A stretch of DNA of 64,000 nt from Amycolatopsis benzoatilytica AK 16/65. GTDB taxonomy: Bacteria; Actinomycetota; Actinomycetes; Mycobacteriales; Pseudonocardiaceae. The translations under genes and the position numbers were made by a program. Numbering within the stretch: position 1 is the first letter of the stretch; every line of letters begins with the position of its first letter. Shown here one piece after another: positions 59,113-60,616 of this stretch. The stretch lies in NCBI RefSeq assembly GCF_000383915.1, contig NZ_KB912942.1, positions 1,335,953-1,399,952 on the forward strand. The letters run 5' to 3'. Below the pieces are notes generated by a model. The model did not search any database, was not told where the DNA came from, and saw only the letters and a program-made list of their open reading frames with translations.

Positions 59113-59130
59113 GACCGCTTGACTGAAAGT

Positions 59131-59162
59131 CCGTGAAGGGCCCCTTGAGGGAATCAGATTCC
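59131..59162. repeat. 51-bp palindrome interrupted by IS110 element (left part)
   Basis: CCGTGAAGGGCCCCTTGAGG and GAATCAGATTCC form the left 32 bases of a palindrome copy; the remaining 19 bases (CTCAAGGGGCCCTTCACGG) lie at 60583-60601 beyond the insertion sequence. Joined, they give a perfect 51-bp copy lying between convergent genes. Confidence 0.95.
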
Positions 59163-59187
59163 GACTTGTATGTGGTGACCGGTTGGA

Positions 59188-59215
59188 TTGGCTGGCTGAT
59201 CACTGGTCGTAGTCT
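59188..59215 (+). promoter_or_regulatory. Candidate promoter of the bridge RNA
   Basis: TTGGCT (59188-59193) and TAGTCT (59210-59215) are separated by 16 bases and resemble -35 and -10 elements. They would start a transcript near 59222, at the foot of the first stem of the predicted bridge RNA. Reactivity cannot be judged from sequence. Confidence 0.5.
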
Positions 59216-59221
59216 GCCGGA

Positions 59222-59400
59222 AGTGCCGGGCTGGGATCGCTCGTGAGATTCCTGCCGCCCTTGTGCGGGCTGGCTCGTTGAGGGTGTGTGTCCTGGTCCG
59301 GCACCGGCTGCGGTCTGACTCAACAGAGGTTCGGGCACCACAAGCTGAAAGTCGGAATGTCGACCGCGGTTTCCCGTATCTGACGAGGAAGGAACGCGGT
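59222..59400 (+). ncRNA. Predicted IS110 bridge RNA
   Basis: Two stem-loops lie in the left end. Stem 1 pairs GTGCCGG (59223-59229) with CCGGCAC (59298-59304); its loop holds AGATTCC (59246-59252), identical to the left target, and TTGAGGG (59278-59284), the reverse complement of the right target CCCTCAA. Stem 2 pairs GCGGTC (59310-59315) with GACCGC (59362-59367); its loop holds ACAGAGG (59323-59329), identical to the element right end at 60572-60578, and AAGTCGG (59349-59355), the reverse complement of its left end CCGACTT. This is the target-loop then donor-loop order known for IS621. Ends are approximate. Confidence 0.85.
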
Positions 59401-59402
59401 TG

Positions 59403-60566
59403 ATGGTCGTGATCGGAGTCGACCCGCACAAGTCCAGTCACACTGCGGCGGCGCTCGACCCGGGCAGCGACGCGACGCTGGACACCGTCCGCATCGACGC
59501 GGCATTGCCGGAATACCGGAAGCTGCTGGTCTGGGCCCGGCGGTTCGGGCAACGCCGCTGGGCGGTGGAAAACGCCTGGGGGCTCGGCCGTCATCTGGCG
59601 CAGTGGCTCACCGCGCGGGGCGAGACCGTCGTGGACGTCCCCGCGACCGCGACCGCGCGGGTGCGGCAGCTCTCGCGGGGCCGCCGGAAGAACGACGCCC
59701 TGGACGCCGCGGCGGCGGCCAGCGTGGCAGCGCTGCAGGGCGACGGGACCCCGGTGACCGCCGAGGGGCTCTCGACGGTGCTGGGGATGCTCGACGAGCG
59801 GCGGACCAACCTCACCCGGCAACGCACCCGGACGGTCAACCAGCTGCACGCCCTGCTGCGCGAACTGATGCCCGGCGGCGCACCCGCCGACCTGACCGCC
59901 GGCCAGGCGGCCGCGATGCTGGCGCGGGTCCGGCCGGCCTCTCCGGCGGAGCAGGCCCGCAAGGACCTCGCGCGGGACCTGGTCGCCGACATCCGCGCAC
60001 TGGACACCCGTGTGAAGACGAACCAGAAGCGCATGCAGCAGGCCGTCGCCGATTCCGGCAGCAGCCTGCCCGACGTCGTCGGCATAGGCCCGGTGGTGGC
60101 CGCGCGGCTGATCGGGCGCACCGGTCGCGCCTCGCGGTTCCCGACAGCAGCGGCCTTCGCCGTCCACGCCGGCGCGGCGCCGATCGAGATCGCCAGCGCC
60201 GGCACGGCGCGGCACCGGCTGTCGCGCCAGGGCGACCGCAAGCTGAACAATGCCCTGCACACGATCGCCTTGACCCAGGTGCGCATGTCCGGAACCAGAG
60301 GACGCCTCTACTACGACCGCAAGATCGCCGAGGGCAAGACTCACAAAGAAGCGATGCGCTGCCTGAAACGCCGTCTGGCCGACCACGTCTGGCGAGTCAT
60401 GATCGCCGACCAGCGCCGGCAGACACGAGCGGCGGGCCCGGGAGGACACGCGGGGGCGACTCTGACATCCAGCGCGACCAGCCCTACCCCGACGGCCGGC
60501 TCTTCGGACAAGTCACTTCCCGGACCCGCCAACCACAACTCTACGACACCGAACCCAGCAGCTTGA
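59403..60566 (+). CDS. IS110-family transposase (bridge-RNA-guided recombinase)
   Basis: About 387 residues, full length. The RuvC-like DEDD domain shows D7 in IGVDPHKSSH, a Glu in AVENAWGLGRHL and the Asp pair in RKNDALDAAAAA. The C-terminal Transposase_20 domain has the helix-hairpin DVVGIGPVVAARLIGRTG and the serine region SAGTARHRLSRQGDRKLNNALH near residue 265. These proteins recombine donor and target through a serine intermediate under guidance of a bridge RNA. The Ser/Thr-rich C-terminal tail of ~50 residues is extra. ATG 59403 has AGGAAGGA upstream; no frameshift is seen, so it may be active. Confidence 0.93.
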   Translation: MVVIGVDPHKSSHTAAALDPGSDATLDTVRIDAALPEYRKLLVWARRFGQRRWAVENAWGLGRHLAQWLTARGETVVDVPATATARVRQLSRGRRKNDALDAAAAASVAALQGDGTPVTAEGLSTVLGMLDERRTNLTRQRTRTVNQLHALLRELMPGGAPADLTAGQAAAMLARVRPASPAEQARKDLARDLVADIRALDTRVKTNQKRMQQAVADSGSSLPDVVGIGPVVAARLIGRTGRASRFPTAAAFAVHAGAAPIEIASAGTARHRLSRQGDRKLNNALHTIALTQVRMSGTRGRLYYDRKIAEGKTHKEAMRCLKRRLADHVWRVMIADQRRQTRAAGPGGHAGATLTSSATSPTPTAGSSDKSLPGPANHNSTTPNPAA

Positions 60567-60616
60567 CAAACACAGAGGAACCCTCAAGGGGCCCTTCACG
60601 GACGGGTCAGGCGGGG

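Follow-up and report, generated by a model that had tools for sequence, protein, structure and literature searches.

An IS110-family element of Amycolatopsis benzoatilytica with a predicted bridge RNA whose guides match its palindromic target and its own ends

The 64,000-nucleotide stretch of the genome of Amycolatopsis benzoatilytica AK 16/65 that was analysed here (contig NZ_KB912942.1, positions 1,335,953 to 1,399,952 of the forward strand; the whole of it is referred to as the window) contains an insertion sequence of the IS110 family, in which a transposase gene is preceded by a long non-coding left end. The element interrupts a palindrome, its left end is predicted to be transcribed into a bridge RNA, and the 3' end of its transposase gene overlaps a second conserved block, which is predicted to be an antisense RNA. 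The coordinates of these features, all given as positions in the window, are collected in Table 1.

Results

The IS110 element and its transposase

The transposase has the two domains of the IS110 group, PF01548 (DEDD_Tnp_IS110; 85.5 bits, cut-off 29) and PF02371 (Transposase_20; 70.5 bits, cut-off 21.3), in agreement with the preliminary description of this locus, made from the sequence alone, in which an IS110 element had been recognised. Residues 220-334 match the transposases of ISCro4 and IS621 in the Protein Data Bank (PDB). The residues D8, E57, D99, D102 and S275, which we take to be the catalytic residues, are unchanged across an alignment of four members. The non-coding ends have the arrangement of the IS110 group, being long on the left (239 bases, 59161-59399) and short on the right (14 bases, 60567-60580). 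The genome (8.7 Mb, in one contig) has the element in three copies with the same ends and three different flanks; copy L002 has the same sequence as the window copy throughout the 1420 bp, and the sole difference of copy L003 is one N. Elsewhere in the genome, two other IS110 genes (L004 and L005; 35-37% identical) are less than 3 kb apart.

Table 1. Positions of the element, its target and its predicted RNAs in the window
Feature	Position	Strand	Remarks
IS110-family element	59161-60580	+	1420 bp from left CC core; right CC core 60581-60582
Transposase gene	59400-60566	+	388 aa; IS110 domains
Left part of target palindrome	59129-59162	+	arm 59129-59155 (27 bases), loop A 59156, other arm 59157-59162
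Left target end	59161-59162	+	core CC
Right part of target palindrome	60581-60603	+	core CC, remainder of second arm; complementary to left arm
Insertion target of window element			AGATTCCCTCAA
Predicted bridge RNA	59178-59371	+	start placed from junction promoter and onset of conserved fold
5' hairpin of predicted bridge RNA	59179-59220	+	helices 1-3, 89.5-96.5% of cells paired
Target-loop stem	59223-59229 / 59298-59304		GTGCCGG / CCGGCAC
Left target guide AGATTCC	59246-59252	+	same as left target 59156-59162; varies with left target in relatives
Hairpin between both target guides	59254-59274	+	helix 6, 97.0% of cells paired
Right target guide TTGAGGG	59278-59284	+	complement CCCTCAA at 60581-60587; varies with right target in relatives
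Donor loop and closing stem	59306-59371	+	helix 7, 13 pairs, 99.2% of cells paired
Donor-loop stem	59310-59315 / 59362-59367		GCGGTC / GACCGC
Left donor guide ACAGAGG	59323-59329	+	same as 60572-60578; two bases short of core
Right donor guide AAGTCGG	59349-59355	+	complementary to CCGACTT 59161-59167
Candidate -35 box TTGACA	60563-60568	+	17-base spacer to -10-like TTGTAT 59166-59171 on joined circle
Second conserved block, predicted RNA antisense to transposase 3' end	60431-60530	-	
-10-like box TANNNT (TAGAGT) upstream of predicted antisense RNA	60538-60543	-	in 35 of 38 right ends

The guides in the left end

Four 7-base guides are found in two stem-loops of the left end, and each of them, like both closing stems, lies exactly where it had been placed in the preliminary description. 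The order of the loops and the strand sense of the guides are as published for IS621. It had also been noted that three of the four guides include the CC core and that the left donor guide stops two bases before it, and both points are correct: when this guide is aligned with the element end, seven matches are followed by two mismatches, one match and one mismatch. Owing to the palindromic nature of the target, the guide sequence TTGAGGG is found again at 59145-59151. When dinucleotide shuffles of the left end are searched for exact 7-mers, with five registers per guide and in any order, all four guide types are found in none of 100,000 shuffles and three types in 21, as expected from the earlier claim that four such matches are unlikely by chance.

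Fold and extent of the predicted bridge RNA

The consensus fold of 19 left ends has 40 pairs, 16 of which are changed on both sides. In this fold 96.3% of the cells are paired, as compared with at most 46.8% in slid versions, the covariation score is 0.398 (0.207 when shuffled) and there are 77 double-change cells (26.3 when shuffled). The covariation analysis of related left ends that had been proposed as a check gives a fold that is conserved and covaries, and the two-loop structure of the left end (target loop, donor loop), by which a bridge RNA or seekRNA is recognised, is present as a predicted conserved fold. The fold of the single sequence (z -1.74, with 10 of 200 shuffles folding equally well) is too weak alone, and the structural evidence is therefore that of the alignment. 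The Rfam scan gives no match to a bridge RNA.

As regards the extent of the RNA, the two loops stand as previously described (target loop 59223-59304, donor loop 59310-59367, the latter with a closing stem that extends to 59306-59371), whereas the proposed start at 59222 does not, since the fold begins at 59179; the predicted bridge RNA probably starts some 44 bases upstream of 59222. The candidate -35 box of the junction promoter recurs widely, and 23 of 24 elements have TTGACA in the final 40 bases of their right end; in the table from which this promoter was read, the left end of L065 is misread by the pattern, and spacings are one base long where the left end was read one base early.

A search of 80 genomes of the genus with the fold model finds nine places in seven genomes, all adjoining an IS110 gene. 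Eight of these are beside IS110 genes that had been listed for the genus, and the ninth (L159) is beside a frame that is IS110-like by eye; five of the places belong to elements used for training or to their copies. Among these 80 genomes there is no orphan bridge RNA, at strict filters with which weak matches are lost.

The palindromic target

The element of the window is inserted in a palindrome with perfect arms of 27 bases and a loop of a single base; the cut is just 3' of the apex. Each of the three copies has a different member of a single palindrome family as its site: TCAGATTCC / CCCTCAA at the junctions are common to all three, whereas the arms vary at some positions and no resemblance is apparent between the outer flanks. 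The 14-base target TCAGATTCCCTCAA has 69 exact occurrences in the genome and 245 matches when one mismatch is allowed (one palindrome may count on both strands), and the reversed control has none in either search. Within the genus, the exact 14-base target is present in 11 of the 80 genomes and absent from the other 69. The 30 exact sites that were fetched are, by eye, similar palindromes, some of them imperfect, in which changes in one arm are matched in the other. As judged by a crude codon-position test, the genes around these 30 palindromes are convergent in nine cases, on the same strand in 11 and divergent in two, with one palindrome in frame and seven cases unclear. The Y1 transposase associated with repetitive extragenic palindromes (REPs), PF01797, has no match in the genome, the controls being positive in five of 14; since this family is not matched, the targets are named REP-like palindromes and not REPs.

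An orthologous empty site was sought in other genomes for each copy. For the window copy, the nearest genome that was found has a different left neighbour. For copy L003, all ten genomes searched hold the right-flank gene and none has an uninterrupted target; by eye, the flank genes are close together without a palindrome in seven of them, another hairpin is present in two (L163 and L167) and the left neighbour is different in one (L171). Palindromes such as that at the L003 site seem to come and go, because between the same genes L163 and L167 hold a different hairpin and seven genomes hold none. For copy L002, the flank match is long in nine of ten genomes (it is short in G020), and by eye none of these nine has the target palindrome at the junction.

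Guides and sites among related elements

A protein-alignment scan of the contigs of GTDB gives 80 loci, including elements from A. orientalis and A. echigonensis. Thirty-seven elements were examined, namely 33 loci, mostly of higher identity, together with L051 and the three copies of the A. benzoatilytica genome; after four had been dropped for an unreadable target loop (L057, L069, L101 and L131), 33 elements were kept, with a readable left target in 31 rows and a readable right target in 28 rows. For the left guides, a mean of 8.38 of 9 positions pair with the element's own site (16 distinct combinations), as compared with 5.9 when shuffled, and for the right guides 7.04 of 8 (23 distinct combinations), as compared with 5.15. 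Neither mean is reached in any of 20,000 shuffles, also with one row per distinct guide, and these counts are not strict probabilities, because the table was typed, the core was placed by hand and the rows are related. Loops that stay constant while the site differs had been named in the preliminary description as the observation that would speak against a bridge RNA; in these 33 elements the guides change with the site, and the target guides are complementary to both strands of it. For example, in L056, which is the same element as L038 and has a transposase that is 77% identical, the guides are AGGTTCC and CCGGGGG and the site is AGGTT-CC-CCCGG. The core itself is also subject to change: on the right side it is TC, not CC, in L067, L068, L084 and L129, where the left, right and right donor guides are altered to suit, and on the left side of L084 it is TT.

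The donor guides are complementary to the element's own ends in 7-base matches, and the right one follows the end when this changes. In 25 typed rows with seven distinct combinations, the right donor guides pair at 6.86 of 7 positions (5.53 when shuffled; reached by 64 of 20,000 shuffles), and in 25 typed rows the left donor guide, taken over nine bases, pairs at 8.07 (7.56 when shuffled; 30 of 20,000 shuffles). The spacer of the window element, AA at 60579-60580, stands opposite TT of the RNA (59330-59331), and relatives with the spacer CA or TA mostly pair through; the stopping short of the left donor guide is a trait of the subgroup of the window element and not a general one.

Among 20 flanking frames, chosen by coding score, 14 have a transposase, integrase or HTH_21 domain match at E <=0.001, those of L064, L071 and L076 being only below the curated cut-offs; the remaining six (L102, L062, L065, L068, L078 and L129) have no such match. 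By eye and from family traits, we take the sites of the relatives to be IS3-type ends and transposase genes of the IS30 type. Positions 2305-2404 of L064, which lie in the left flank of an IS110 element in an IS30-type gene, match a group II intron (44.2 bits, gathering score 40). In a more distant IS110 group of the genus (L041, L042 and L043, 47-49% identical), the loops match, by eye, the elements' own insertion site, located in the 3' portion of an integrase-like gene, and the core is apparently CT.

A second conserved block in the right end

The Rfam scan aimed at the bridge RNA gave instead a match of 35.3 bits (E 0.00028, cut-off 45) to RF02341 (ncrMT1302) at the second conserved block of Table 1, spanning 60423-60518 of the minus strand. 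A match is found at the same place in all six further elements tested (the weakest being L060, with 25.2 bits and E 0.66), in seven of nine more block-bearing elements (not in L044 and L046) and in none of three elements without the block, so that 14 of 16 block-bearing elements match, at 25-42 bits. These scores are below the gathering score of 45 bits; the block is therefore not filed as RF02341, and a common origin is argued from the reciprocal model described below.

The conservation of the block exceeds that of the surrounding coding sequence. In 13 transposase genes the identity at four-fold degenerate sites is 0.80 in codons 341-360 and 0.91 in codons 361-380, as compared with 0.39-0.61 in the other stretches and 0.53 over the whole gene. 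The block is detected with nhmmer in 51 of 96 records, some of which are copies of one element, and 38 of these 51 right ends, near-copies being left out, were used for the fold analysis. In the antisense direction they fold at -39.6 kcal/mol with 27 pairs, in the sense direction at -15.6 kcal/mol with 17 pairs. Of 1026 cells, 98.5% pair on the antisense strand and 84.8% on the other strand, where the value is lower because 143 cells are G-U; when the antisense fold is slid, at most 56.1% of the cells pair. Eight of the 38 right ends have a one-base gap inside the block, by which the last transposase codons would be shifted and the RNA kept. In 35 of 38 right ends the antisense stem is preceded, at a distance of 8 bases, by a TANNNT box, for which the chance expectation is about 0.005 per site; the conservation between box and stem is 0.40, as compared with 0.77 in the block. 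On a transposase tree of 59 rows (built from 66 of the 80 loci and the window, eight being dropped for stops), the block requires three changes. When the antisense RNA is paired with the bridge RNA or with the transposase start, 18 of 30 and 14 of 30 shuffles, respectively, pair equally well or better, and therefore no duplex target is claimed. Our guess is that the predicted antisense RNA dampens transposase expression.

Relation of the block to ncrMT1302

A search with RF02341 gives matches in 39 of 298 genomes of the order and in none of 14 named control genomes; in the genome of the window element, the matches are exactly the three element copies. The 14 genomes with scores above the cut-off are all of one genus (g53, family f8), by its content presumably Mycobacterium. 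Thirty RF02341 loci were fetched, of which 11 have an IS110 gene beside the match (one of them being the window's own) and 19 have none within about 1.5 kb (L182-L195, L197, L199, L201, L210 and L211). When a model derived solely from IS110 right ends (R2) was applied to 29 loci, all 29 were matched at the corresponding position, including all 19 stand-alone loci, for which E ranges from 3e-21 to 0.018. The weakest of these matches, in L188 and L189, have 18.7-18.8 bits, a narrow margin over matches off the site or on the wrong strand (up to 15.9 bits), and L211, with 99 bits, is close to the transposon form. The TANNNT box precedes the match by 25-27 bases in all 19 stand-alone genes and by 25 bases in the window. 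One stand-alone gene (L183) adjoins an adenylate cyclase with a regulatory domain, and Mcr11 is likewise beside an adenylate cyclase, according to an excerpt of PMC8628891; other stand-alone genes adjoin a thiolase, a luciferase-like gene or a nitroreductase.

Discussion

It is very probable that the left end of this element specifies a bridge RNA, whose guides match the palindrome and the element's own two ends, and which would steer the IS110 transposase by base pairing. The same reading had been offered in the preliminary description, and it is supported by the IS110 transposase, by the two-loop fold and by guides that change with the site. As suggested by work on IS621 and ISEc21, the element would leave its site as a circle, on which the joined ends would put TTGACA 17 bases from TTGTAT, and this promoter may drive the bridge RNA from a start near 59178. 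The left target guide would pair with the bottom strand, and the right target guide with the top strand, of AGATT-CC-CTCAA, 3' of the apex; the donor guides would pair with the joined element ends, and the transposase would exchange strands at CC.

Several observations weigh against this bridge RNA reading. The left donor guide of the window element does not pair at one core base and at both spacer bases, and the spacer bases are without covariation in the relatives, the observed value being reached by 6,741 of 20,000 shuffles. Some target guides fit their sites poorly, on the left L051 (5 of 9, shifted by one base) and L073 (of 9 positions, 4 paired and 2 as wobbles) and on the right L080 (5 of 8) and L055, L064, L066, L078 and L125 (6 of 8). 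In the group in IS30-type genes the core was placed by hand, and the rows of the comparison are related, not independent. The 16 double-change pairs of the left-end fold are matched or exceeded by five of 500 shuffles. Finally, no orthologous empty site was found for any of the three copies, and the uninterrupted target is therefore taken only from other palindromes of the same genome.

The location of the fold directly upstream of the transposase gene would also be expected if the left end served simply as a structured leader for the control of transposase expression, with the palindrome recognised by the protein alone, and the transposase of ISPpu9 is reportedly controlled by a 5' leader and two small RNAs (PMC8450116, in excerpt). 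If the protein alone read the site, the loops would not vary with it; however, the loop letters match the site element by element, also at sites that lie in transposase-like genes and are non-palindromic by eye, and such a leader is in our view highly improbable. It is just as difficult to credit that the shape of a hairpin or cruciform is recognised and that base pairing only aids this. Recognition of the shape would agree with the position of the cut, which is near the apex in a perfect palindrome of 27 bases, and with arms that, by eye, co-vary among the sites, but relatives of the same layout are found in sites that are non-palindromic by eye, for example in genes with integrase domains. 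That the four guide matches are by-products of chance or of local repeats, as the repetition of TTGAGGG in the palindrome at 59145 and the guide length of only 7 bases might suggest, can practically be dismissed when considering the 100,000 shuffles, none with all four, and the guides of the relatives, which change with the site.

The interpretation of the right end is much more tentative. It is possible, with the chances slightly below even, that IS110 elements of this kind have two RNA genes, with the bridge RNA encoded in the left end and a promoter-bearing antisense small RNA of about 100 bases in the 3' end of the transposase gene, that the latter shares ancestry with Mcr11 (ncrMT1302), and that Mcr11 and the stand-alone genes are domesticated copies. 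We lean towards a transposon RNA that came first and was later domesticated by its hosts, because the block is present in transposons of many actinobacterial families and the stand-alone genes above the cut-off are from one genus of the sample; the reverse, in which the element captured a host RNA, is possible. In the open PMC literature, no title or abstract beginning among the matches listed ties Mcr11 or ncrMT1302 to IS110. If the right-end RNA is real, it is a second RNA gene in IS110 elements, which goes unmentioned in section 12 of both PMC11208160 and PMC11187229, and a studied mycobacterial small RNA gains a transposon relative.

The elements of this clade form a natural retargeting series, in which one layout is combined with 13 left and 17 right distinct guide strings and with a core that has naturally switched from CC to TC in some members, at sites that include a palindrome family as well as transposase genes. 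Such matched pairs of guides and targets from high-GC bacteria are useful for recombinase work and for testing the evolution of guides directly.

The comparisons with known systems refer to excerpts of the cited articles. The bridge RNA of IS621 (Durrant et al. 2024, PMC11208160) is similar in its IS110 group, its long left end, the order of target loop and donor loop and its palindromic repeat targets, and its guides are divided between the strands in the same way, the left ones reading the bottom and the right ones the top strand. The core is CT in IS621, whereas it is CC here (TC in some relatives), and the present element differs also in its left donor guide, which is short of the core, and in the extra predicted antisense RNA of its right end. 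The core dinucleotide takes part in three of the four pairings, not in all four as in a strictly defined IS621 case, and the RNA is therefore filed as an IS110-group bridge RNA and not as IS621-type.

The seekRNA systems of ISEc21 and ISMch6 (Siddiquee et al. 2024, PMC11187229) are likewise of the IS110 group and have a circle-junction promoter. IS110 members that target IS3 genes are known from ISEc21, the target of which lies inside IS3-family genes (PMC11187229), and some relatives of the present element are also in transposase genes. For ISMch6, a 72% identical relative of ISEc21, a natural redirection has been described (PMC11187229), and the present clade is also retargeted; one redirection is seen there, as compared with 13 left and 17 right distinct guide strings in one clade here, some of them one base apart. 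IS110 members that target palindromes are also known, IS621 among them (PMC11208160, PMC1525189). ISPpu9, ISPpu10, ISPa11 and ISRm19 (Tobes and Pareja 2006, PMC1525189) share with the present element the insertion into repeated extragenic palindromes, and differ in that the exact target here is found in 11 of 80 genomes of the genus, and that the genome is without a Y1 transposase match. The right-end block resembles ncrMT1302/Mcr11 (RF02341; PMC4109619, PMC8628891) in the order of the conserved stretches and in the distance of the -10-like box, unlike the block, however, these are stand-alone genes, one of them beside an adenylate cyclase, and not inside a transposase gene. When considered alone, the predicted bridge RNA is a further case of the known bridge RNA type, whereas the element with its second predicted RNA is a variant.
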